NCBI GenBank assembly: GCA_947650285.1
Contig: CANTFL010001467.1
Coordinates: forward strand, 248,001-312,000
Source of the DNA: Hyaloperonospora brassicae
Lineage: Eukaryota; Oomycota; Peronosporomycetes; Peronosporales; Peronosporaceae
Direction of reading: 5' to 3'
DNA length: 64,000 nt
In this document: positions 14,432-45,808 of the stretch, piece by piece
How positions within the stretch are numbered: position 1 is the first letter of the stretch
Layout: each line of letters opens with the position of its first letter
Position numbers and translations under genes: made by a program
Notes under the pieces: generated by a model
Told to the model about the DNA's origin: nothing
The model's input: the letters and a program-made list of their open reading frames with translations, nothing else
Databases searched by the model: none

Positions 14432-14735
14432 GCGATCAGTCGATCAAGAAGAAAACCGCGATCAGCAAGGCAATCGCGATCAAGATGGCGATTGAGACCG
14501 TGATTAGTGATCAAGATCGTGATCAGTGATCAGGTATGCGATCGCAATCGTGATTAGTGATCAAGATCGTGATCAGTGATCAGGTATGCGATCGCAATCG
14601 TGATCATTGATCAGGTAGGTGATCGCGATCAAGTTGGTGTGGAGCACACCATGTGATCCGCGATCAGCAAGGTGATCGCGATCAGGAAGCGATCGAGATC
14701 GTGATCAGTGATCAGGTATTTGATCGCGATCAGAC
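14432..14735. repeat. GATC-rich cluster, unit 1
   Basis: About 28 GATC sites fall in roughly 300 bp, against about one expected by chance. Many are nested in self-complementary contexts such as GCGATCGC, TGATCA and CGATCGCGATC. A 50-bp block starting TGATTAGTGATCAAG is repeated directly (14501 and 14551). The cluster starts inside the tail of the MULE coding region's downstream frame and has no coding sense of its own. Confidence 0.9.
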
Positions 14736-32754: not shown

Positions 32755-33043
32755 ACAATCATCACATATGTCCTAGATCATTTTTCTTAGTGTATTTACT
32801 GCATAACGTTTATAGACCAGAAGTTTTTCGTCCCATACAGGGTTTTCTTCGCTATAAATATAGCAATTTCATTTTAAGTGCATACTCATTGATGCAATAT
32901 CTTACTGTGGCGTAAAACTATGCCAATATTCTGGAGTGATTATACACTTTAACCAAACCAAACGTATTCCCTGTCTTGTCATCCCCTTTGGAACTCTCTA
33001 CGTGCACCTTGTTGTAATTTAAAGTATTTTTCAATAAACACCG

Positions 33044-33517
33044 TTGAATTCCTTAATCAGCGCTGGTGTTTCTCCATCAGCACTGTATACGGCAATATAT
33101 CTAGTTTTCCTATTGCTTAAAAAAGACAAGTTTGTCTTGTACAAAAAATTGAGCATGCAGCAAGTTCGAACGGCACCTTCAATTTTACCCGATAAAAACG
33201 ATATTGATATGACAAATTTACATACAATGCCAAACCACAACATCATGACAAAACCGTATCTAAACACGTTGTCGCTCAATAAACTGACAAAATGGTTTGA
33301 CGAATACGCTTCAGGCATCATCGCACGTTTCCTCCCAGAACTATGCCTGCATACGAAGAAGTTTAAAGTCATCAATAAGAACTTAACAAAAGTACCAGAT
33401 TCATTGGGGTCTATTGATATGATTATGCGTTTTAAGATTTCCAAATTTATTAGCAGAAAGCGAAATGCGATCCTACAACTCAAGCAACTCCAACAGCAAC
33501 CGTATCACCTACGATAA
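33044..33517 (+). CDS. Hypothetical 157-codon frame inside the 1.25-kb element
   Basis: Not recognised. The translation is rich in lysine, leucine and asparagine and includes LNKLTKWFDEYASGIIARFL and KFKVINKNLTKVPD, which read like a real, mostly helical protein. It lacks any signal peptide or known catalytic motif. The frame ends in a glutamine-rich run where the CAN repeat begins. An opposite-strand frame (33483-33031) covers the same bases and is less protein-like. It may be a fragment of the element's own protein or of a captured gene. Confidence 0.35.
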   Translation: MNSLISAGVSPSALYTAIYLVFLLLKKDKFVLYKKLSMQQVRTAPSILPDKNDIDMTNLHTMPNHNIMTKPYLNTLSLNKLTKWFDEYASGIIARFLPELCLHTKKFKVINKNLTKVPDSLGSIDMIMRFKISKFISRKRNAILQLKQLQQQPYHLR

Positions 33518-33665
33518 CAATAGCAGCAGCAGCAGTAGCATCATTATCAACGCAATACGAACATCAACCACAGCACCTACAATGAAAACAGCAACAACAG
33601 TAGTAGCATCACCAGTAGTAGCAACAACATCAACAATAACTACTGAAAGTTTAATAAAAAAAGCA
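33480..33665 (+). repeat. CAN-type trinucleotide-rich tract
   Basis: The tract is dominated by CAA, CAG, CAT, ACA and AGT triplets, an imperfect microsatellite. It would encode a serine-, asparagine- and threonine-rich run in one frame, but no surrounding gene supports that. Confidence 0.7.
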
Positions 33666-33882
33666 ATACCATCAGTCTAAACAACATTAGCACACCCCGA
33701 CTGGGGATGGCTGTTTCCCCCCGCCCTGTTTGGGGCCGGACCGAGGAGACATTCTGCAACTGGCGGCTGCAAGCGCAGCACGACCGCTGCAGAACCCTCT
33801 CCGCAGATTCCCGAACCGGGCGGGGGTTGGTCACGGCCGTGAAGGGGAAAACAAAAATGATTAGAGACGTGTGGTATAATTT

Positions 33883-33944
33883 GTACCACATTAACTCAAT
33901 AATACTAGGACGTGGGGCGTTTTTATTTTCGTAATTAAATAGGC
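33883..33944 (-). repeat. Right inverted end of the 1.25-kb element
   Basis: Reverse complement of the left end, with a few substitutions and a one- or two-base length difference. Confidence 0.7.
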
Positions 33945-34276
33945 TATTTTTGTATTTTCCCTACAAAAAAACCAAAATAAACTGTTGCGGTCACATCTGT
34001 ATACGAGAGAGGCACGGAATCCAGTGCGTTGTTATCCGCGCCGCCGCTTGTTAACACCGTTACGTGCCTCCTTTTTAAACGTTGAAGCAATTGCTTAACA
34101 TTCGTATTTGAACCATTTTGTCATCACATTCAGTGTCCTGGCGCTCTGCACCTGATAGAATCATGCCGTGTAATTCCTCGACCGACAAACTGAGCGTTTG
34201 CTTTGACAATGCACCGGCAGCAGAAAATTTGTCTCCGGCTTCGCCAGTTCTGACAAAACGTGGTGGATCCGTTGGC
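33945..34276. other. Spacer left of the Ty3/gypsy element
   Basis: No gene recognised. A short plus-strand frame from 34118 runs into the LTR and has no recognisable domain. The five bases flanking the two LTRs do not match. Confidence 0.5.
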
Positions 34277-34669
34277 AGTAACGGGGCACACCCTTGCCTG
34301 ATCTTAACGCAAGGGCTTGGGTACCCCGACAGACGTACACGAGGCGAACGAGGAAGCGTAGGATTAGGAAAAAGTAAAAACTATTATATTAATATAATTA
34401 AGTCTTTTAACTTTTGTCTCTCTGTTTGACTTAACTTAATTATGCTAATATAACTGAGTGTATGGTGACGTCTCGTCACCACTCATTGCGCGCGTCTTGC
34501 GGCGATTGGTGGGTTGATATCATCAAGATATCAACCAATGAACAGACTCTTTGGTCGACCCTTCAATATCACCACTTTGGTGATATTGTTCAAAGAATAT
34601 ACAACTTCATATTCTTTATTGTCACTTTCCTTAAAGTGACAATTCCATGTAACGGGCTGCCCCGTTACA
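34277..34669 (-). repeat. Ty3/gypsy 3' LTR
   Basis: Matches the LTR at 41877-42270 with 13 differences. It ends in CCCCGTTACA, the inverse of the TGTAACGGGG start, although the first base here is A instead of T. Strong hairpins lie at 34512-34536 (10-bp arms GGTTGATATC/GATATCAACC) and 34647-34670 (ATGTAACGGG/CCCGTTACAT). Confidence 0.95.
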
Positions 34670-34670
34670 T

Positions 34671-34690
34671 CACTCCCCCATAACCGATAG
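34671..34690 (-). promoter_or_regulatory. Polypurine tract of the Ty3/gypsy element
   Basis: Just inside the 3' LTR, the minus strand reads ATGGGGGAGTGA immediately before the LTR's TGTAACGGGG. A purine run at this position is where plus-strand DNA synthesis is primed in LTR retrotransposons. Confidence 0.65.
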
Positions 34691-34824
34691 TCACCGTGTG
34701 ACTATCGAAAATATGGTGGCCACTCGTTGGTCACCATTGGGATAGGGAGCACTTGTTGGGTCCGTTCCATTCACTTTCCGCTTGACCTCGCATAGTTAAC
34801 ATGTCTATGCGAGGTGACTCATGA

Positions 34825-36408
34825 CCTACACAGCCCGGTGCTGTGCCAGCCTCTGCGGCAGACAATTCGTCGTCTACTGCTCCTTCTTCGCCTGCAGCAA
34901 CAGGTGCTGCAGGTGCACGCGGTTCAGCACCGCGTGCGCATGATGACCCCGACATTGAGGTCATCTACTCTGGCGAGTCAGACGTGTCTGACTCTGGCAA
35001 TGCTCCAGAGGCGTCTCGATCACCGGCGACGCCTCATTATTCGCCAAGGCCACTACCGAACGAATGGAATCGTGAGTTGCATCACAGTCTGTTCGGCAGT
35101 GATGACGATGATCGGGGTGGTGAGGAATATTGTTTCTTACCACCGCCGGATCGTGCCTCTTCACACGAGCGTGATGACGATGGCGTGAGCCGTCGTCAAT
35201 CTGGGAGCCGTGGTACCAACAAAGGTACCACTGTGAAGCGTGATGAGCTAAAGCCGTGGCGTTTGCCCGAACGGCTCATCAATAGCTTGTCTCACGAGAC
35301 AAGCCAACACCATCGAATATCCTTATTCGATGCGACTGAGCTTCACGGCTTGAGCCCTAGCGCTAAGAACTTTCGCGCTGAAGAAGATTTTTATCTCGAT
35401 GTCTTTCTTAGACATCGATGGTACAACAGCAACCAAAAGCGTGACAAAGCCTCGCTTTTGGCTGCGTGGAACGCGTTCGTCCAAAACGTAAAGAATTTTG
35501 GACGAGAAGGGTGGCTCAAGAAACTTGAGGCGACACGCCTCAGGTTCGAAAAGCGAACGCCAACCGGTGCCAGGTACCGGTTGCACTATTTGTCTAGTGA
35601 GGCAGACATTCCTTGCCTCACATGGGGAGACACTTGTGCGAGTTGTGTTGACAACTCGCAGCGTGCACATATGGATGTGTATTCCCTAAGTTCGCCCTGG
35701 GGAAGGGCACACATCTCGTCTGAGATGCTTGACGCGATTGCAAACTTGCAATCCGTCTACAAGCGCCTAGGGCGCGTGTTTACCGATGGGCCCGAGGAAT
35801 CATCGGACAGGTCTCGTCATATTGGCGGACGAGACCTTCAACATCCATCAACAGCTATGAGCAGGGCTCCCAGCTGATCCAAGAGGGTGTATACCCCAGC
35901 CACCGGACGAGGTAGCTCGTCCTTGATCCTGAATCGTCACGGTGATTCAAGATACGCTCCACTAGAAAGCGTTGATCACCGTGAGCATCCACCAAAGGAT
36001 GTGGTGGAGGAGGAAAGACCTCCTCCAGATGATTTGGTTCACCATCTCGACCATTACGAGATGGATCGCGCAATCGATGAATTGCGCGATGACTTGAAGC
36101 ACGAGCGCGACCGGCGCTACGCTTTGACCGATACCGTGCGGAAGAACCGCAAGGATCACGAGGCTGATCGGGCGAGGTATCGTGCCGATTATGCCACAGC
36201 GCAGCTTCAGGTCGAGCGGGATGTCCGCTCCCTATTCGGCGATCTTGCGACAGCTCGCGGGGAGATATCTCGGTTGAGTTCCGAGGTATCATATCTGCGC
36301 GACCAGACGGATCGTCTGGAGCGCGAACGCAAGAACTTGATGGATGTTCTTGAACGTGGGTGCTATCTTCATCGGAAGAAGAAGGCTCGTACTGACAGTA
36401 CGGCCTGA
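34825..36408 (+). CDS. Long antisense accessory frame in the Ty3/gypsy element
   Basis: On the strand opposite to gag-pol a single frame is open from 34825 to 36408 except for one TGA at 35875-35877. Part one (344 codons from 34843) has an acidic, serine-rich N-terminus, then a globular-looking region (residues about 165-310) with VFLRHRWYNSNQKRDKASL, WLKKLEATRLRFEKR and four cysteines. Part two (173 codons) is a strongly heptad-like coiled coil (AIDELRDDLKHERDRRY; EISRLSSEVSYLRDQ; RLERERKNLMDVLE) ending in a basic KKKAR tail. No in-frame ATG precedes the globular region, so a start may have been lost or supplied by splicing. Part one lies beyond the end of pol; part two overlaps the linker antisense. 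Function unknown. Confidence 0.5.
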
Positions 36409-36418
36409 GCCTCCCCAC
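35855..36418 (-). pseudogene. Ty3/gypsy linker and chromodomain
   Basis: The frame starts GRLRPYCQYEPSSSDE, the usual junction after integrase. A long proline-, serine- and arginine-rich linker follows, and then a chromodomain: FLVERILNHRDDSG, SYLVRWLGYTPSWISWEP. The aromatic and W-EP positions of a chromodomain are present. TAG at 35857-35855 ends the frame right after EPCS, slightly earlier than relatives, in which a short helix follows. Chromodomains direct integration to particular chromatin in chromoviruses. The same bases are read on the other strand by the antisense frame. Confidence 0.85.
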
Positions 36419-36419
36419 C

Positions 36420-37989
36420 TAAAACGTAGGATTCGTGCGCATCCTACGTGTCAATTCGAGTGTGTATGCATTGCCCTTGCGATGCAACACTCGAAACGGC
36501 CCAATGTACTTCGGCAGTAGTAAACTACTGCCGACACTAGTGACTGCATGTCCAGGTAAGTTTACCGTAGACATTAGTACTAGGTCGTTAACCTTAGATT
36601 AAAAAAACATTTGCTCTTCCATTCTTGTCTGCGTTCCGTTTCTGGCGGTCCACCGCATTTGCGATGGAGTCCTGAACGAAACGGACTACAGCCTCTCGAG
36701 TCAGCAGGAAGTTCTATGCTGACTCGTTGTTTTGTCTTTCAGTGCGCTTCGTGCGCACTGCTGAGAGGTTCTTCTCTTTTTCAGCGAGGTTGTCGTTTTC
36801 CTCGCTGTCATAAGCGTTGGCGATGCTGAATATACCAGCATCTTCATCATCATCCGAGTCAATAATAGCGTCGTTGCTATTTTTGAGGTGATCTTCTTCA
36901 TCGATGTCGACCTGATCGACATCGGCATCATACGTGACGACTTTAGCGTCGACACGTGATGAGCAAGAGCCAAAACGGTTTTTGCTTGAGCAAGTCCCTC
37001 CCCCCTTATCCAAGAGTCACACTCTAAAAGGGCGTGCACACGTGGATGGCGTAAGCCATTCACGTAAAACGGTGTGTGCTTTGTGGAAGCATGCACCGAA
37101 TTTTGATGGCGAATTCCACCATGGGTAGGAATTCGCTCCAACTCGGAAACGAGTGGACATATCCTCGAAGGATCTCTTCGAGGACACGGTTCGCACGTTC
37201 TTTCTGACCATCTGTTTCGGGATGGTCAGAAGTGGACATCTTCAATCGTGTTCCAAGAGAACGGAACACGGATTGCCAAAACGCCGCCGTGAACCGAGGG
37301 TCACGGTCGGATACGAGTTCACGGGGCAACCCGTGGAGTCTAAAGACCGTGTCGAGAATGGAACGAGCACAACCTTAAGCCTTGATCGACTCAGGGACAG
37401 CAGCAAGATGCACCATCTTGCTGAACCGGTCAACAAACACAAGAATACCATTATTCTTGTGAGCGTCTTCGGGAAAACCGAAGACGAAGTCCATTGAAAC
37501 GGACTGCCAGCATTCTGTCGGAACAGGCAGAGTCTACAATGGCGGACGGGATGAAGGACTAGGCTTCACCCGTTGAAAAAACTCGAAAGCACGTATGTAC
37601 TTGCGGACAAACTGATACTGGCGGGGCCAGTTAAAGTCACGACTTACCGTGAGGTAAGTGTTTTCTCTACCACGATGGCCGTCTTTTGAGGCATCGTGAC
37701 ACTCATACATGACGCGTAAATGCAAAATATGATGAGCGGGTACGACGACACGAGGCGTGTCGTCGGCAACAGCTGTATAGTACAGCAATCCGTTGCGTGT
37801 ACTATAGCGATTCGATGAGGATCGGTACAAAGCCGGTAAATTCTTCAATGATTTACTGGATGGATGCACCAGATGATCCATCAATCGCAGAAAATGCTTA
37901 TCTTCCGCGTATGCCTTTCGTACGTCGTCCAGTAAACTTGACGACGGGACACTGACTGACAGTGTCGCAACAGTGGGCTTATCCTCACT
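36420..37989 (-). pseudogene. Ty3/gypsy integrase
   Basis: The N-terminal zinc finger has its histidines (ECHDASKDGHRG), but the cysteine pair is replaced by phenylalanines (RAFEFFQRVKP where CxxC is expected). The core follows in pieces: SVSMDFVFGFPEDAHKNNGI with the first aspartate, VDRFSKMVHL, then after a stop near 37377 LVSDRDPRFTAAFW with the second aspartate, and DHPETDGQKERANRVLEE with the catalytic glutamate. The C-terminal part continues through further frameshifts (STKHTPFYVNGLRHPR near 37100). Several lesions make this copy inactive. Confidence 0.85.
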
Positions 37990-38370
37990 GTTGACTCGGG
38001 TCGTAGGCTCGAAATCGGGCCGGCGCGAGAGCGCATCAGCGACGACGTTTAGTCGTCCTAGCTTGTACTCCACGGAGAAGTTATACTCCGCGAAGAAAGA
38101 CAGCCACCTCGCCATCCTTTGCGACAGGTGTGGGCTGTTTACGGCCGTTCGTAATGACACATGGTCCGTATAGACGATGAACGGTCTATCTCCCAATAGA
38201 TAGACCCGGAACTTAGCCAGTGCGTACTTCATGGCAAGAAGTTCCTTGTCATGCACTGGGTAATTACGCTCAGCTGCTTACAGCTGACGCGACTGATAAC
38301 AGATGACGCGCTCCGCGCCATCTGCATCGAACTGCATTAACGCACAGCCGATTGCAAATCGCTGGCGTCA
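37990..38370 (-). pseudogene. Ty3/gypsy RNase H
   Basis: After the frameshift near 38336 the frame resumes through one in-frame TAA near 38280, then HDKELLAMKYALAKFRVYL (catalytic glutamate), FIVYTDHVSLRTAV (aspartate) and NVVADALSRRPDF at the end. All expected catalytic acids are seen across the two frames. This is the tethered RNase H of Ty3/gypsy. Confidence 0.85.
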
Positions 38371-39608
38371 CAGACCACATGAAATGGTCTGTCCTGATCT
38401 GCAATCGCCAAGATCGGCGATTGCATCAAGCTTTGCTTGCTACCCTCAAAGGAACGCTGGCACTCAGCGTTCCATGACCACTTGACATTTTTCTTGAGCA
38501 AGCAAGAAAGATGAACAGTCATCTCGGCGTAGTTGCGCGAGTACTTGTGCAAGTACGCCGCTAGACCAAGGGACTTCCTTAGTCTCTTGACATCGACTGG
38601 CACTGGCCATCCGGTGATTGCCTTGATCTTTTCGAGATCAGGGCGGACGCCGTGTTTACCCACGATGCACCCAAGAAGTGGTATTTCGCTGGCCGCGAAT
38701 ATATACTTCTTGAGGTTGGCGTACAACTTATACTTGCGCATAAGTTGAAGAACCTGACGAACGTGAGTTCTGTGAACTTCAACGTCCGTCTTTCCGTCCA
38801 TAGCCCGGCTATGGACGAACACATCGTCGAAGTAACTCGGTGCGAAGTCTCGCACCGGGCTCAACAGATTTGTGACACATCTGTTGAATGTTGCAGGGGC
38901 ATTGCTCAGCCCCTGTGGCATAAATAGCCACTCCCACAGCATCCCGCTGGGGTAACTCACTGCCGTGAACGGGATGTTCCGTTCACGCATGAGGATCTGA
39001 TAGAATCCATCCATCAGATCCATGGACGAAAAGATGGTACTCTTTGACATACCATCTATGATTACTTCCTTCCTCGGTATCGGCGTCTGAGCCGGTACCG
39101 ATGAAGCATTCAACTTGTTGAACGCGTGCACTATCCGCCATCCTCCTGCGGCCTTTCGCACACAGAATGTCGGAGAGCTGTGAGGGGAAGTTGATTCCCT
39201 GACATGGCCCGCTGCTAAGCGATCGGCAAAGAACTTGTCGATCGCTAGTACTTGTTCACGAGGCAGTGGCCACTGCTTCATCACACAATATTTCGAGCCC
39301 GGTTTGAGCTCGATCTCGTGTCGAGTGCCTTTGTCCTTAGGCAACTCGCAAGGTACGGATTCAGGGAACAGGTCCTCGAATTCGATCAAATCCTTATACG
39401 AAGGATTTGCCTGAAGTGACTTCCAGGATTGAGATTCATATCTCTTAATCCGAGTCTTCTCATCGAGGACACTTTCGTCCATTGATGAGCTGCTGAGAAC
39501 CCGTTCGTTCTCAGCAAATAATGTGGCCGACCGAGTATCGGCCACATACTCGTCCTCCGCGACGAGTATGCAGACCTGCTTGACTTTGCCACTACGGAGA
39601 TCACGCAA
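38337..39608 (-). pseudogene. Ty3/gypsy reverse transcriptase
   Basis: A 423-codon frame with the linker to protease, then RT motifs in order: HEIELKPGSKYCVMKQWPLP, the aspartate in FSSMDLMDGFYQI, FMPQGLSNAPATFNRCV, the catalytic YFDDVFVHS box, and LLGCIVGKHGVRPDLEKI. It runs into the start of RNase H (VCDASD) and is then lost by a frameshift near 38336. The enzyme itself looks intact; the break separates it from RNase H. Confidence 0.9.
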
Positions 39609-39640
39609 GAACCGTTTCGGTTCTAGCGTTGGAAATTGAG

Positions 39641-40692
39641 TTATCTCCGAAGCGAAGTTAACTTCGGAGGCACAATCAGATCAAGCGTATAAGCGCCTAC
39701 GCTTGATCCGTCATTAATCAAGACGTTCAACGTCTCGGTTACTTCCTGGGAGATTCTTTCCACAGGTTGCTGAAGGCCTAATCCTTCATCAAGTGACTCT
39801 TGAGGAATTCCTTCCTCAAGTACGTGGAGACTTATTCCCTCGACGTCTTCTGACTGTGGCTGTGCAACCACAGTCAGGTACCGATCCTCTACGGTCGACT
39901 CTCCAGTCGACCTAGGATATCCGTGTTGCCGCTTGTGGGCAACCGGTTTACTCTTGCTAGGATGTCGCCCGCTAGGCGTACATCCACGTTCCGGTCCACT
40001 CGACTTCTTCGAGTGGTGGACCTTCGGCGCACCCTGTACTCCTGTACAGCCACCGGGAGCTTGCTCCACAGTGTAGTGATCAACTACACTGTGATCTTGT
40101 GCAGTCGTGCTAGCGACCGAACCGCAAGTGAGGCAATCGCACTCACTCGCAGTACATCCACACGCTTGTGGACGCTCCAAGATGTTCATCAGATGGCCAT
40201 CTGGTGAACAAGCGGCAGGCATCTTCACGGATCGATGCTGCCAGCTCAACCTTGGCTCGTACTTTCTGAGCCAAGGCAATCCCAGGATGACATCAAATTT
40301 GTCATCCAGATCTAGTACGATGAAGTCATCATCGTACTGTTCGCCCTCTAACGTGTGGTGGATTTGTACTACACGTTTCTCAACGGTTATCGATGCGCCT
40401 GTTGCAAGGCGCACCGTCATCCTCGTGAGGGGAATGTCGCGCTCAACGAACTTGAGCCTACGACCCTCTAGTAACTGGCGACGAACAAAGTTGTTCGACG
40501 CCCCACAGTCTACTAGGGCACGAAGCGACAAATCATATGTCGCGTTCAACTTCAAGGTGATGAGCAAACCGTCATCACCAGGTGCAGAGACACACAATGA
40601 TTGTGTATCTGGAGCAACTTTCGTCAAGAGATTTGCAAATTCTCTTGAGGTTGCTGGATCAGTAGGGCGCTCCGCCCCTACTGACCCCGACC
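39641..40692 (-). pseudogene. Ty3/gypsy protease region of pol
   Basis: Contains LRALVDCGASNNFVRRQ, the aspartic protease active-site region with DCGA where DSGA or DTGA is usual, and downstream FDVILGLPWLRKYEP, the typical second part of the retropepsin fold. The remainder is a hydrophilic spacer rich in basic residues. The frame ends at 39641 and reverse transcriptase continues in another frame, so a frameshift has occurred there or a few bases have been lost. Confidence 0.85.
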
Positions 40693-40699
40693 ATTTTTT
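40678..40699 (-). promoter_or_regulatory. Candidate -1 ribosomal frameshift site, gag to pol
   Basis: On the minus strand the heptamer A-AAA-AAT (40699-40693) is in the correct phase of the gag frame, four to five codons before the gag stop (40680-40678). A -1 slip there enters the protease frame, which is open from this point to 39641. Eight bases after the heptamer a hairpin starts with 9-bp arms TCAGTAGGG/CCCTACTGA, the typical spacing for a stimulatory structure. Because hairpins are common throughout this element, the hairpin alone is weak evidence. Confidence 0.55.
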
Positions 40700-41832
40700 G
40701 ATGGTCCGTCTCGCTGTTGCGGCTTCGCAACAGCGCTGGACCCACGCCCATTGCCCTTCTTGGCAAATGGTCGTCCATTTCGCTCAGTACTGTTTGGTAC
40801 TGGGCGCGGAGCACTACACTCGTATGAGTAGTGCCCTAACTTCTGACAGCGATTGCACCTTTGCAACCGCTTGTTGTTTGAAGAGCGAGGTCTCTCGCTC
40901 TCAACATAGCAGAGGTCCATTGGTTCTGGACCTCCGATCTCTTGTCGTCTCGGTGGACGGTAAGAGTTTGAGCTAGCATGAGCCTGTCTTATGCTTAAGT
41001 CTTCCTGTTCCGCGGCTGATATCGCTTCTTCAAGCGTATTCAGCTCAAGGCGGAACAGGTGGCTCCTGACGGGCCCTTCTGCGAGCCCTTGCATGAACAC
41101 CGTAATCAACGTGTGTTCATGAACTGGGTTAGCAGTTATACTACTCGCAAGGAATCGTATATGTTGAGCGTTAGCGTGCACATCACGCTTACCCTGCTTG
41201 AGTTTCAGGAGCTCAGAACGAGCCCTGAACTCAGCTCGTGGCGGCTCAAATGTTTGTCTGAGCCGGGACTTGAAGTCATCTAGCGACCTAAACACATTTG
41301 GGTCGCTACTCTCGAGCCCCAGGGACCAAGTTTTGACACGCCCTGCCAAGCGTGTTTAAGCGAATGTGAGCGTCATTTGCTCATCTTCGACGCGACGAGC
41401 CCTTAAGGCTCTGTCGAGTTCGACAAACCATAGTAACAGGGAGTCCTCCGGGACTCCACTGTACTTGGAGATGTCAACCTTCATGACCTCGGGACGACGC
41501 GCATGTGCCGTCCCGCCCACAGCAGCATGGAATTGCTGCTGTCTCAGCTGCTCTGTCTGTTGAGCACCGAGTTCTCTCAACTGCTCGGCCTGTTGAGAGC
41601 CTTGCTGGTGAAGCAAGGCTACTTTCTCCCTTTCGGCGACAAGTTCATGTTGAATGAACTTGGCGAAAGCGGCATGTTGTTGGTCTCTGTCTAGAGACTC
41701 CAACATGGCGCTAATGGCGAACTCGCCTACGGTAGAACTCATTCGTTCTACCGCACCCCATTCGATTCCACTCAAATGGGTAAACCCTTCACGCGTGGCG
41801 TGAAAGGTCTCTTCGTCATCCAACATGTTCAT
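40678..41832 (-). pseudogene. Ty3/gypsy gag with one in-frame stop
   Basis: The frame starts MNMLDDEETFHATREGF at 41832 and runs to 41356, where TAA follows EDEQMTLTFA. It then continues in the same frame (TRLAGRVKTWSLGLES...) to 40678. The second half is a capsid-type retrotransposon gag domain followed by one CCHC zinc knuckle, CNRCQKLGHYSYEC, with ideal spacing (CX2CX4HX4C). A glutamine-rich run (QQ...EQLRELGAQQTEQLRQQQ) precedes the capsid domain and may be helical. Apart from the single TAA, gag is about 384 codons and intact. Confidence 0.9.
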
Positions 41833-41876
41833 GTTGGATGCTGTGGTCCTTGAAAGGACTACAAAGTGCTAGCAGG

Positions 41877-42270
41877 TGTAACGGGGCACACCCTTGCGTG
41901 AACTTAACGCAAGGGTTTTGGGTGCCCCGACAGACGTACACGAGGCGAACGAGGAAGCGTAGGATAAGGAAAAAGTAAAAACTATTATATTAATATAATT
42001 AAGTCTTTTAACTACTGCCTCTCTGTTTGACTTAACTTAATTATGCTAATATAACTGAGTGTATGGTGACGTCTCGTCACCACTCATTGCGCGCGTCTTG
42101 CGGCGATTGGTGGGTTGATATCATCAAGATATCAACCAATGAACAGACTCTTTGGTCGACCCTTCAATATCACCACTTCGGTGATATTGTTCAAAGAATA
42201 TTTAACCTCATATTCTTTATTGTCACTTTCCTTAAAGTGACAATTCCATGTAACGGGCTGCCCCGTTACA
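41877..42270 (-). repeat. Ty3/gypsy 5' LTR
   Basis: Starts TGTAACGGGG and ends CCCCGTTACA on the plus strand, so it has the TG...CA ends of LTRs. The gag start codon lies 45 bp inside it on the minus strand. The intervening sequence should hold the primer-binding site, but I could not match it to a particular tRNA. Confidence 0.95.
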
Positions 42271-42853
42271 TCTTACGAGCCCTAGCAATGAACCATTCCA
42301 CTATAAACAATCCGAAACGCACAGGATGGACCTCGTCTGATTTATCGTCCGTCAGAGGAAGTGGACTAATCGCAACTATCATGTGTCTTGCTATGTCATG
42401 GACAATGCAGCCGTCGCGTGGCAAGTTTTTTCTGGTGATATTTCGTCTACAAAACTTGATCAGCTTTACATTCTAATGCGTGCATGGCTGCTTCATTGCA
42501 AATTGCGTCACTTACAGCATCAAAAAAGTGTCGCGGGGTCGACAAATGCCCAACAGCTACGCATGATGAAAGCGGTACTCGCGTATTAGGAACCAGTTGT
42601 CCAAGATGCAAGCGTCTGCATTACACAACACACGCCTGATACAAAGATCGGTAACGCTCGCAGCTTTAATCGCACTTGCCCATTCCGATCAGGACTCGTG
42701 GACAAGTTTCATACTGGACCAGTACGCAGCAAGAGGCCCTACATGTCGTCAAACGCAAGTCAAGTATTGCTGATGCGCATGTTCAGTGGTAAGAAGCTAC
42801 TCCGGTCGTAACAGGTGATCGAGCCGCATCACCTCGCGTAGCAAGCACGCGCG
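42271..42853. other. Spacer between Ty3/gypsy element and eIF5B
   Basis: No gene recognised. Short plus-strand frames have no recognisable domain. The right part should include the 3' untranslated region of eIF5B. Confidence 0.5.
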
Positions 42854-45808
42854 CTAAATGATGTCGAACACCTTCTTTAGCTTGATCACGAGCTGCCAAT
42901 CCTCTTTCTGAAGATCATCCCGAAAATTCTCTTTCAGCGCATCGATACTCTGACGGGTCAAGCGCGACACTAGCTTGTTCTTGTGGTCAAAGTGACGGCC
43001 GTACATGACACTGCTCTCGTTGTCTATCCGCACAGCAACCGATGCACCCTTCTTCGCACGGTCGACCTCTTTGTGCTCGCGTTCGATCGAACCCACCTTG
43101 CCGACCAAGAAGCCACCGGCGGATGGGACTACGAGAGGCGTGCCTACTTTGAGAATGCCCTCTTCAACGTCGACACCAAGAATGATTGGGTCCTTCTTGT
43201 TAAAAACACAGTTGGGAACGATCTTGAGCACGCAAGGAAACACAGCAACTTCCTCGAATTCCTCGCGACGGGCCATCCGAAAGTTTTCCATATACGCCGT
43301 AAACTGGTCAAACAGGTGGTAAATGATGTCAGCTGTAAAAATGCGCACGCCAAGCTCGGAAGCCAACTCAGTCGCGTCGTTGTGAACCTTCACGTCAAAC
43401 GCCAGTATGGTCGCGTATTCCGGCTGGTGCTCGAGTTGCACAGAAGCTCGCATCACGTCTTTCTTGTATACGGGGCCAATGTTCACACAGGACACCGGAA
43501 TAGGCGGATCACATGTGCGTAAGAATTCCAGAAGCGCTTCCAAAGCACCAAGAGTGGAAGCTTGAACCATCACACCACGACGGGTGGCCTTCACCGAGTC
43601 CAGAATACTCGTTAGATCGGACATTACAGAATCCTTCAGCTCCTCAACATCGTCGTCGGGGCCAACCACGTAAATCTGTGTACCGGCTACAGCTTTTTCA
43701 AGACCTTGCGCGCAGATTTTTACGCCCATGGCAGCCTTTATCGTTTGGTGGTGGATATACTCACCCTTGACTCGGATCTCTTTCATTGGGTGTGGAGTCA
43801 GTAACGAACGGATGGTTGTCACTACGGGCCCGTCCAAGGTACACACTACGATGGTTGACCCTTCTTCCAGTGTACCGTTTACCAGGATCGTATCAATTGT
43901 CGTACCGAGACCCTCGATAACCTTCACTTCTAGCACGGTACACTGCAAGATGTCGACGAAGGCCAAAGACTTGGCCATGCGCTCCTGCGTCAAGCGTGTC
44001 AGCATCATCAACAAGTCCGGCACACCTTCGCCGGAGATGGCACTGGTAGGGATAAGCGACACTGTGTGCGCCAGGTTTTTGTTGCGCCAGTAGACCTCGG
44101 CATTTAACTTCTGCTCGGCAAACTCCACGATAATCGCTTTCATTCGATCCTCAAACTCACGAATGACGTGCTCGTTCTGATGCTTCAGCGCTTCCTGGAC
44201 AGGCATATCAGGCATCGTCTTCCAGCCGTAACATCGGTCGATTTTGTTGAGTGCCACGACAAACGGCGCTTTCTTTTGACGCAGTAGGCGTAGCGATTCC
44301 AGAGTCTGAGGCTCCAAACCGTGCATTATGTCAACCACCAAAATGGCGATGTCACATAGCGACGAACCACGATTACGCAGATTCGTAAATGACTCGTGGC
44401 CAGGTGTGTCAATCACTAGCAAACCGGGCAGACGGAACTCGAGCTTCATTGTCTCAATAAGCCGAGCCGTCTTCTGCTTGATAGCTTCCACAGGAAAAAA
44501 GGTAGCACCGATTTGCTGAGTGATACCACCGGCTTCGGCGTCTTGCACTTTGGTCTTACGAATGTTGTCAAGCAACTTCGTTTTACCGGTATCAACATGA
44601 CCCATGATACAGCAAATGGGGGAACGCAGGTTGTCCAGAGACACGTTGGCTCGTGCAACGGCCTCGCGTTCGCGACGTCGATCAGCAGCCTCTTTCTTTT
44701 TACGGTCCGCCTCGATTTTGGCCTTGGAGCGTTGATGCTCCTCCTCAGCCTCAGCTCGCATCTGCTCTGCCTGCTCCTCTTGGCGTTTCTTCAGCGCAAT
44801 GCCCTGCTGACGTAGACGCTCTTGCTCCTTCTTTTGCTCCAGCACCAAAAGATCCTCGTCTCCGCCATCATCACTGTCTACGGCAGCAACTCCTTCGTGT
44901 ACTTCTTGGAGCTTATCTTCCAGCGAGGCCACGACGTTGCTAGTCTCCCAGTCGTCGTCGTCCCACGCATCGGGCGCTTCAGTCTCCTCTTCTTCTTTCT
45001 CCTCCTCCTTCTCCTTCATCTGCGGCTCCACGTCGTCACGTGCCGCCGGCTTATTGTCTTCTACCTCTTCGTCACTCTCGTCCCCACCATCTTCGGTTAT
45101 CCCGGCTTTCTCGGCTGTCTCCTTCCGCTCATAGTTTTGCCGTTTCTTGTCGGCATACACCACCTTTTTCTTCTCGCCAGTAGCTTCCGGCACAAGACCG
45201 GCCTGCTGCATGGCTTCCAATGCCGCCTGCGCTTTGGCCGCTTTCTGTTTCTGCGCCTTCGTCATGTACGTGCCTTCCTTCTTCTGCCGCTCGATCTTGG
45301 CTGCACGCGCCTCTTTCTTCTTGCGCCGAAGCTCTTCTTCTGCCTCCATCTCGGCCAAGCGCTTGGCCTCTTCCTCCTGCGCAATGCGCTCGAGCTCCAG
45401 TCGTTCCTGCTCCGCGCGCTCCTGCTCGGCCCTCAGCGCCGCCTGCCGCTCCATCAGCACCTTCGCAGCCGCCGACATGGGCTTCTTCTCGTCGTCCTTC
45501 TTCACGTCGCCCGTGGGCTTCTTCTTGCCCTTCTTCTTCTTCTTCTTCAGCTCGTCCTTCTTCTCGTGGCCAGCGACAGGCGCTACGCCCAGTGACGCCA
45601 AGTACGCAGCAGCAGCGGCGTCCACGTCCATTGCCTTCTTCGCGTCCTGTTGCTGCTGCTCCTTTTGCTGCTGCTGTTGCTGCTGCTGCTGCTCCTTCGT
45701 CGCGCCGTCATCCGCTTGCGGCGGCGCGAACTCACTCAGCAGATCGTCCAAGTCGGCGGTCGTCGACGGCTTTGTCGCGCCCTTCTTTCCCTTTCGCGCG
45801 GGTGCCAT
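42854..45808 (-). CDS. Translation initiation factor eIF5B
   Basis: A 984-residue intronless gene. eIF5B is the cytosolic GTPase, homologous to bacterial IF2, that joins ribosomal subunits at the end of initiation. The start chosen is ATG at 45808 ([15 protein letters not shown]); the frame is open further upstream but only into the hairpin region. The N-terminal 390 residues are charged and low in complexity, with a glutamine run near residues 39-60 and lysine-rich blocks, as usual for eukaryotic eIF5B. The G domain starts about residue 400: GHVDTGKT (G1), [13 protein letters not shown] (G2), DTPGHE (G3), NKID (G4), SAISGEG (G5). Domains II to IV follow, ending [16 protein letters not shown]. 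The symbol is left blank because species naming is unknown. Confidence 0.97.

Follow-up and report, generated by a model that had tools for sequence, protein, structure and literature searches.

What purpose can short perfect inverted repeats serve when they fill an entire retrotransposon, its terminal repeats as well as its genes? The question arises from an element at 34277..42270 of the window, i.e. the whole 64,000-nucleotide stretch of DNA that was analysed, in which an initial annotation had reported hairpins throughout. Its genome is most probably that of Hyaloperonospora brassicae, a plant-parasitic water mould. As judged by its sequence, the element belongs to the Ty3/gypsy LTR retrotransposons and carries a chromodomain; we take the name chromoviruses, used for chromodomain-bearing Ty3/gypsy elements, to apply to it. 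Its parts and the hairpins laid over them are as follows.

34277..34669, minus strand: 3' LTR in the element's own sense, direct repeat with 41877-42270
41877..42270, minus strand: 5' LTR in the element's own sense, TGTAACGGGG...CCCCGTTACA, with inner hairpins of 8-11 bp
40681..41868, minus strand: gag, two open stretches (41359-41868 without Pfam match; 40681-41355 Retrotrans_gag, PF03732, 1.2e-11)
39644..40783, minus strand: aspartyl protease stretch (PF08284, 8.3e-10)
38340..39680, minus strand: reverse transcriptase (RT) stretch (PF00078, 1.7e-21), YFDD motif read from the translation
37063..38277, minus strand: RNase H and integrase stretches (37537-38277, PF17917, 1.8e-17; 37063-37374, PF17921, 3.3e-11)
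35858..36418, minus strand: stretch with terminal chromodomain (approximately 35864-35965; PF00385, 6.9e-08)
34825..36408, plus strand: antisense frame opposite the chromodomain, 350 + 176 codons, one stop in the window copy
34291..42271, no strand assigned: perfect hairpin array, 86 hairpins at arms of at least 8 bp and loops of 3-12 nt, 110 at arms of at least 7 bp
38795..38817, minus strand: 10-bp hairpin over the codons adjoining the RT active site (hairpin scan and translation)

The element limits 34277 and 42270 agree with the LTR ends. The LTRs are 97% identical along 300 nt and 91% along a further 44 nt; TG...CA ends are present in the LTR at 41877-42270, the other has A for the first T, and where the plus-strand start of the latter reads AGTAACGGGG, its partner reads TGTAACGGGG. 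A target-site duplication is absent from this one old copy in the window (ttggc precedes the LTRs and tctta follows them). Pfam matches follow the order gag, protease, RT, RNase H, integrase and then chromodomain, all on the minus strand. The zinc knuckle of the gag stretch at 40681-41355 is weak (PF13917 and PF00098 under their cut-offs), and the integrase combines a firm zinc-binding match with a weak core (PF00665, 0.004, under cut-off). Rfam yielded nothing at gathering score in 33000-44000, a tRNA scan with the bacterial code found none in the window, and scans of viral contigs and genome contigs returned no relatives outside the element's own genome. The antisense frame has relatives in downy mildews. 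Its C-terminal part contains many charged heptads, a coiled coil by eye; the predicted protein fold is of low confidence (mean pLDDT 57), and no match was found at E<=0.001 in two libraries.

The reported saturation with hairpins is real. Against the 86 hairpins at arms of at least 8 bp, 200 dinucleotide shuffles gave a mean of 1.09 and a maximum of 4, and at arms of at least 10 bp the 31 observed compare with a shuffle mean of 0.06. The array spans the LTRs, both coding strands and the non-coding stretches. With the window cut into bins of 2 kb, the four that cover 34 to 42 kb have 25-27 hairpins each (arm at least 7, loop 3-12), and the remaining 28 have 0-8, the 8 belonging to the bin with the LTR tail. 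Three flanks of element length carry 9, 2 and 3 hairpins at arms of at least 8 bp, with approximately 1.2 expected. The left flank, in which a repeat-rich tandem array lies, has a mildly raised count. All 11 hairpin sites named by the initial annotation outside 35515-35583 were recovered with coordinates within 1 bp; in that cluster, three of the named hairpins appear at arms of at least 6 bp, and GTTCG/CGAAC, with an arm of 5, can be read from the sequence itself.

Shuffles that preserve codons, 300 for each frame, likewise lose the hairpins. The element has eight open stretches; at arms of at least 7 bp, seven of them lie above all shuffles, and the integrase stretch (4 hairpins vs 0.40) ties the largest one. 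At arms of at least 8 bp the RT stretch has 15 hairpins vs 0.34. In the pol frame of the L026 copy the count is 54 vs 1.0. Two flanking frames, including eIF5B, which had been described as ordinary and indeed is, lie inside the shuffle range at both arm lengths. A further 29 copies carry 46-52 hairpins (arm at least 7) in the 3 kb that have 38 in the window copy. That the hairpins stem from chance, base composition, codon bias or an assembly artefact is practically impossible: both kinds of shuffle and the counts in the other copies speak against it, GC is approximately 0.51, and nothing was found in favour of such an origin. Direct, mirror and plain-complement repeats were rejected as a source, since none is raised in L026 (7, 2 and 5 matches of 7-mers at gaps of 3-12, compared with 243 inverted ones).

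That selection for pairing acts on the element is well supported by the copies. Among 30 of them, shared synonymous changes per opportunity amount to 14/817 in stems, 22/224 in loops and 74/1729 elsewhere, i.e. they are approximately six times rarer in stems than in loops. Singleton synonymous changes show a smaller contrast, with stems still lowest (22/817, vs 11/224 in loops; 84/1729 elsewhere). When four different copies successively define the stems, the rate of shared changes per site ranges from 0.010 to 0.023 in stems and from 0.086 to 0.101 in loops. Each of the 29 copies set against L026 is less diverged in stems than in loops; stem divergence is biased somewhat downward because stems were chosen as intact in the reference copy. 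In addition, the phase that pairs wobble position against wobble position is depleted (28/9/26 of 63; 36/14/35 of 85). Together with the shuffles and the synonymous constraint, this bears out the earlier proposal that codon choice serves pairing.

Pairing is also retained across greater distance. The relative L065, at 50% protein identity over the diverged part, retains some of the hairpins in place, re-matched on both arms; covariation of arms in relatives had been named as the check to make. Twenty stem pairs differ on both sides between L065 and the window copy, and 14 of them are Watson-Crick (chance approximately 1/3, p=9e-4); the reverse comparison, which is not independent, gives 11 of 14. 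Nine of 18 hairpins have at most one broken pair. Two sites illustrate this.

35285..35304, plus strand: hairpin GCTTGTCT/AGACAAGC; the aligned L065 site reads AGTGGTAT/ATACCACT, four pairs kept and four changed on both sides
35637..35660, plus strand: hairpin TGCGAGTTGT/ACAACTCGCA; in L065 two pairs are changed on both sides yet paired, the outermost is broken and the loop is identical

Across 186 hairpins the median span is 24 nt. The span is tighter than independent arm and loop lengths would give, only 2 of 5000 permutations being as tight (170 hairpins, loop up to 16). An arm is continued at rates of 0.81, 0.84, 0.69 and 0.55 up to 10 bp and then at 0.28 and 0.15, where chance gives 0.25. 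These rates support lengthening of arms by selection to approximately 10 bp and extension at the chance rate beyond; the early idea of selection against arms above 11 bp was rejected, the fall being that of chance extension. This saturation at 10 bp is the number for which any mechanism must account. Spacing between hairpins is random (CV 1.05), which is not as expected from optimised coverage. Loop sizes ranging from 3 to 12 led to the rejection of fixed dimer-binding sites. A preference for a 5'-end pyrimidine, apparent in L026 (56/89), was not upheld in the pooled set (91/164, p=0.18), and an excess of A in loops is weak and varies between stretches.

Predicted folding energy lies far under that of order-shuffled controls along the whole element, and gaps of 60 nt or more that separate perfect hairpins fold too (mean z -4.3, 17 stretches). 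Fold excess in sense and antisense is 51.7% and 50.5% for L026 and 39.7 and 40.1 for the window copy; the controls gave 27.6/19.8 (MS2), 28.4/20.0 (Qbeta), 13.2/10.3 (L063, a sister family) and 7.6/1.1 (eIF5B). The sense/antisense energy difference per 150 nt is nil in L026 (-0.48, SE 0.94) and -3.22 in both MS2 and Qbeta (SE 1.52 and 1.40), which sets element and phages only approximately two standard errors apart. The host eIF5B frame folds better in sense as well (-2.74, SE 1.45); hence, folded RNA genomes are not alone in such asymmetry. G-U pairs make up 5.4% of predicted pairs on both strands of L026; the window copy has 8.2 and 7.1% and the phage plus strands have 11-12%.

The reading we prefer, with a probability of approximately 0.4, is that the hairpin array keeps sense and antisense RNA locally folded and thereby may evade Dicer/Argonaute silencing. 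Selection has made most of the element a succession of short perfect hairpins, whose key property, we infer, is local folding everywhere and in both polarities. The sense genomic RNA and the antisense RNA of the conserved antisense gene would be held as compact local hairpins, so that they would neither anneal to long double-stranded RNA nor offer open target sites; small RNAs cut from the hairpins would fold on themselves, and the element would escape silencing. Small RNAs of 21, 25/26 and 32 nt in P. infestans lie mostly on transposable elements, predominantly LTR retrotransposons, according to the excerpted text of PMC3522703. A stricter version is tentative: a silencing-proof code of self-folding units of approximately 24 nt over most of either strand, genes and LTRs included, each lengthened by selection to approximately one helical turn (10 bp) but not beyond it. 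Since such units fold on themselves, sense and antisense could not anneal, targets would be closed and guide RNAs would be self-complementary.

The initial annotation had offered an ordered RNA fold, cruciforms in DNA or a copying mechanism as causes, and the evidence favours the fold. Ordered structure on the sense genomic RNA only, serving compaction or packaging, RNA stability or translation control, is a less probable alternative. The antisense would then fold because perfect Watson-Crick hairpins are symmetric, and the structure over the whole length with less diverse paired sites resembles what is described for RNA viruses (below). The absent strand difference in L026 and the low G-U share compared with the phages argue against it, as does the region of the antisense gene, where the coding strand is reversed and which is likewise full of hairpins. 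It is compatible with the mismatch test, in which interior G-U and A-C mismatches number 11 and 14 in the element and 5 and 4 in MS2 plus Qbeta at the same setting; this near equality in the phages too leaves the strand test with little power, and the count was dropped as a sign of strand-symmetric selection.

Equal folding of both strands also keeps a DNA-level role in play, either as cruciforms in the integrated copy or, while reverse transcription proceeds, as hairpins in the single-stranded cDNA; such structures require Watson-Crick pairing on either strand. It would account for hairpins in the LTRs and for strictly Watson-Crick stems (1323 perfect pairs and 39 single interior interruptions, 25 of them G-U or A-C), but it is unlikely: cruciform extrusion is favoured by small or absent loops, and inner loops of 0-2 nt are few (10, compared with 21 in the class of 3-4 nt and 22 in that of 5-6 nt, at arms of at least 8 bp). 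The arms of the element are short for cruciforms, and no benefit to the element is known. Very unlikely is fold-back copying, in which the reverse transcriptase copies arm into arm and perfects hairpins without selection. The perfect stems would fit, as would two-sided Watson-Crick changes at seven stem pairs among the copies, five of them in the LTR. However, it predicts mostly two-sided inherited changes, and of 36 shared non-majority states of stem pairs (G-U scored as a break) 31 are one-sided breaks, three are one-sided and still pairing and only two are two-sided. It also predicts a near-neutral stem rate, whereas the shared rate lies 4-10 times under that of loops. Direct and mirror repeats show no excess, and the RT protein stays 82-92% identical to its closest homologues.

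The element shares gag, protease, RT, RNase H, integrase, chromodomain and LTRs, in the usual order and on one strand, with other chromodomain Ty3/gypsy elements; it differs by the hairpin array over its whole length and by a long conserved antisense gene on its 3' side. We know of no other retrotransposon in which codon choice over approximately 8 kb serves base pairing. A literature search for hairpin-built retroelements and neighbouring matters found no account. Yeast Ty3, of the same retroelement group, has a structured genomic RNA, of which stable well-folded regions make up at most approximately 30% by SHAPE in the available part of PMC11381356; there the structure was probed, and here it is predicted and extends over LTRs and genes as well as the gaps that separate perfect hairpins. 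The genome-scale ordered RNA structure (GORS) of RNA viruses, as set out in the accessible portion of PMC7642675, likewise covers the genome and leaves paired sites less diverse. Pairings in GORS are little conserved between relatives; those of the element are not conserved against L062 and are partly conserved, with covariation, against L065. The element differs in being an LTR retrotransposon and not a single-stranded RNA virus, in a predicted excess of 39-52% compared with a maximum of 23.4% given there for vertebrate RNA viruses, in perfect hairpins with arms mostly of 7-10 bp and equal strands, and in keeping some sites with covariation across approximately 50% protein identity.

MS2 and Qbeta are highly structured coding RNAs as well, but they contain 1.0 perfect hairpins (arm at least 8) per kb compared with 11.6 in pooled stretches of the element, have a fold excess of 28% compared with 52% in L026, and fold better in the plus than in the minus strand. 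Folding of both strands in these phages probably prevents strand annealing. To our knowledge, no coding sequence is more strongly folded than this element, as predicted.

Many copies, a diverged covarying relative and sister families without these hairpins occur in one genome and form a natural experiment on the purpose of genome-wide RNA structure and on whether structure shields a mobile element from RNA interference. Relatives lacking the inverted repeats at the same sites had been named as a refuting outcome, and this outcome is seen in part: L063 has no such hairpins, and L062 has a weaker form of the excess at other sites (one of 13 hairpin centres coincides to within 1 nt, where 0.4 would be expected), while L065 keeps half of the hairpins compared. 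Like the random spacing of the hairpins, two findings on the sister families count against the preferred reading. The overall fold excess of L062 shows no gain over hairpin-free L063 (11.0% vs 16.6%). Three places carry exactly the score of L063 and the same 1606-codon open frame; hence, an element can succeed in this host without the hairpins.

The Ty3/gypsy element at 34277-42270 is saturated with short perfect hairpins. Each of the four 2-kb bins from 34 to 42 kb contains 25-27 hairpins with arms of at least 7 bp and loops of 3-12 nt; the remaining 28 bins of the window contain 0-8 each. The initial annotation had described this saturation, and all 11 hairpin sites it named outside 35515-35583 are present at positions within 1 bp. 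It had further proposed shuffled controls, and these bear it out: with arms of at least 8 bp, the element carries 86 hairpins against a mean of 1.09 and a maximum of 4 in 200 dinucleotide shuffles, and three flanks of equal length carry 9, 2, and 3. The features of the element are as follows:

41877-42270 and 34277-34669, LTRs flanking the element
41868-40681, minus strand, gag
40783-39644, minus strand, protease
39680-38340, minus strand, RT
38277-37063, minus strand, RNase H and integrase
near 35864-35965, minus strand, chromodomain
34825-36408, plus strand, antisense gene, interrupted by one stop in the window copy

The reading frames of the window copy are split into several open stretches. 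Codon-preserving shuffles, in which synonymous codons are permuted while protein and codon usage stay unchanged, yield means of 0.1-0.5 hairpins (arms of at least 8 bp) for eight open stretches of the element, which contain 3-15 each. The RNase H-integrase stretch is the only one of the eight to equal its largest codon shuffle (3 hairpins); at arms of at least 7 bp, it is the short integrase stretch that does so (4 hairpins). The adjoining frame of the host gene eIF5B has 1 hairpin against 0.27 in codon shuffles. In L026, another copy of the element in the same genome, 7-mers recurring at gaps of 3-12 are inverted in 243 cases, direct in 7, and mirrored in 2.

A 3-kb piece of the element served as query; of 2487 candidate places, 40 were scored, and each of these 40 matched. 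Thirty copies, the window itself being one of them, were taken as 6-kb loci. The 29 others carry 46-52 hairpins (arms of at least 7 bp) in the 3 kb for which the window copy has 38, and hairpin number tends to fall with distance from L026 (Spearman -0.57, n = 29); the hairpins are therefore a property of the replicating lineage and seem to decay after insertion. Changes confined to a single copy are mostly decay, and those that at least two copies have in common were probably carried through replication. Per site, stems show 0.010-0.023 shared changes, loops 0.086-0.101, and the remaining sequence 0.087-0.097, four copies serving in turn to define the stems. Singletons are also fewer in stems, with a smaller gap (0.058-0.087 per site versus 0.100-0.123 in loops), and Fisher tests of shared versus singleton against stem versus loop give p from 2e-10 to 2e-4 for the four stem definitions. 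At synonymous sites of the open pol frame of L026, counted relative to opportunity, shared changes number 14/817 for stems, 22/224 for loops, and 74/1729 for all other sites, the corresponding singletons being 22/817, 11/224, and 84/1729. Stems diverge less than loops from L026 in 29 of 29 copies, a comparison biased by the choice of stems intact in the reference copy. Within the 30 copies, two-sided changes that give another Watson-Crick pair occur at seven stem pairs, of which five are in the LTR. That pairing is under selection is well supported. Three of the seven changes, all in the LTR region, occur in the diverged copy L004, which has 50 hairpins (arms of at least 7 bp) in 3 kb, lies 4.1% from its nearest copy, and is perhaps a separate active lineage.

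Opposite the element's chromodomain is the antisense gene, which is conserved, measures about 540 codons in many copies, and allows for comparison with diverged relatives. Its protein has 97 related proteins among the matches listed, those named by organism being from Hyaloperonospora and Peronospora, and the C-terminal part is kept in Peronospora matthiolae (44% over 170 aa). The gene occurs at no fewer than 150 places in the same genome, with open frames of approximately 490-540 codons in most of those listed. The first 350 residues, in a low-confidence predicted model, give no fold match at E<=0.001. L065, a stretch of the antisense gene from a diverged relative in the same genome (50% protein identity over 210 residues, 59% over the full 358 aligned), carries 18 hairpins (arms of at least 8 bp) in 1110 nt, where codon shuffles predict 0.62. 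At arms of at least 7 bp, 18 of its 19 hairpins align gap-free with the window, and 9 of these 18 keep all pairs but at most one. Co-variation of the arms, which the initial annotation had suggested examining, is found: pairs altered on both sides are Watson-Crick in 14 of 20 cases (p = 9e-4 versus one third), and in 11 of 14 when the comparison is reversed, a result that depends on the former. In one hairpin, four of eight pairs are replaced and all are still paired. The 27 one-sided changes between L065 and the window comprise 6 G-U, 7 A-C, and 14 others. Another relative, L066, interrupted by an internal stop, yields small counts: 7/14 (p = 0.15) and 2/2 two-sided changes are Watson-Crick against the window, and 3/3 and 0/0 against L065. 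At this locus (G000:C781:67200-68050), one-sided stem changes favour G-U on the sense strand of the antisense gene (12 versus 2 against window hairpins, 9 versus 4 against L065 hairpins), which the other comparisons do not. The hairpin DNA of 35878-36408 is 78-96% identical to L065:740-1110, and that upstream 40-85%. This more similar part overlaps the integrase-chromodomain stretch on the opposite strand, as would be expected if it coded on both strands or had recombined.

Among the stretches read, only some families show the hairpin trait, and over long periods its sites are replaced, since the sister gypsy family L062 has its hairpins at different sites, L063, L061, and L064 have none, and 30 additional RT loci have 0-0.8 per kb. 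The RT region of L062 (G000:C14:91200-92900, 57% protein identity) features 8 hairpins (arms of at least 8 bp) against 0.41 expected, with one centre out of 13 lying no more than 1 nt from one in L026 (0.4 expected); the second sister family L063 (58.5% protein identity), as well as L061 and L064, has zero at this arm length. Because the excess in L062 is weaker and at unrelated sites, the trait either has more than one origin or has had its sites replaced. The initial annotation counted relatives without hairpins at the same sites against its reading, and such are L063 (none) and L062 (other sites), but not L065 (9 of 18 kept).

The hairpins have a median span of 24 nt. Among 177 hairpins with arms of at least 6 bp from three stretches, an arm gains one further pair with a probability of 0.81, 0.84, 0.69, and 0.55 up to 10 bp, and of 0.28 and then 0.15 beyond (chance 0.25); selection on arm length therefore seems to act only up to 10 bp. 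GC content is lower in longer arms (rho -0.20, p = 0.03, n = 111). The span is less variable than with independent arms and loops, only 2 of 5000 permutations being as tight (170 hairpins, loops up to 16). The 17 gaps of at least 60 nt between hairpins fold strongly too (mean z -4.3), as interrupted hairpins.

Predicted folding was judged by the energy gain of 150-nt pieces over dinucleotide shuffles. This excess is 51.7% in L026 (antisense 50.5%), 39.7% in the window copy (40.1%), and 38.8% in L065 (39.7%), with 13.2% in L063 and 7.6% in eIF5B as controls. The RNA phages MS2 and Qbeta, likewise controls, reach 27.6% and 28.4% (antisense 19.8% and 20.0%), and values given for vertebrate RNA viruses in PMC7642675 are 7.5-10.7% for hepatitis C virus, approximately 15% for SARS-CoV-2, and at maximum 23.4%. 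Over codon shuffles, the excess is 48.8% for pol, 60.9% for gag, 35.1% for the antisense gene, 32.6% for L065, and 7.2% for the eIF5B frame; despite its perfect hairpins, L062 (11.0%) folds no more overall than the hairpin-free L063 (16.6%). No account of such an element was found in the portions of open-licence literature searched. The element belongs to a known type of retrotransposon, and genome-scale structure is a property already known in kind; new is its degree and form, not met in the portions of literature examined.

Of the reasons considered for the pairing, evasion of RNA silencing by folding of both strands seems the most likely. In the oomycete P. infestans, small RNAs of 21, 25/26, and 32 nt are described, most of which map to transposable elements, chiefly LTR retrotransposons (PMC3522703). 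Both sense and antisense RNAs of the element should exist because it has a gene on each strand. Perfect hairpins of approximately 24 nt would close target sites and hamper annealing of sense to antisense, and guide RNAs cut from them would fold on themselves. Against evasion of silencing count the persistence of a hairpin-free sister family with open frames and the random spacing between hairpins (CV 1.05). The sense RNA may instead have a purely structural function, or the hairpins may act in DNA. The sense-antisense difference in folding is -0.48 kcal/mol per 150 nt (SE 0.94) in L026, whereas the plus strand folds better in MS2 and Qbeta (-3.22, SE 1.52 and 1.40). Strand symmetry of folding is suggested but not proven, since the host eIF5B frame also favours sense (-2.74, SE 1.45; L063 lies between at -1.14, SE 1.56) and mismatch counts have little power: single interior mismatches are G-U in 11 and A-C in 14 cases in the element, and this strand test is given no weight because the phages are also near equal (5 and 4).

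The window copy lacks a target-site duplication (34272-34276 versus 42271-42275), and its left LTR, in plus-strand view, has an A where the terminal T should be; these features hint at recombination or at subsequent change. Left of the element lies a tandem array (about 10223-32200) of 5.307-kb units, approximately four in number to judge from the intervals at which a 185-codon frame recurs. Two adjacent units are 99.8% identical, and every unit carries a GATC-rich tandem repeat, for example at 14441-14733.
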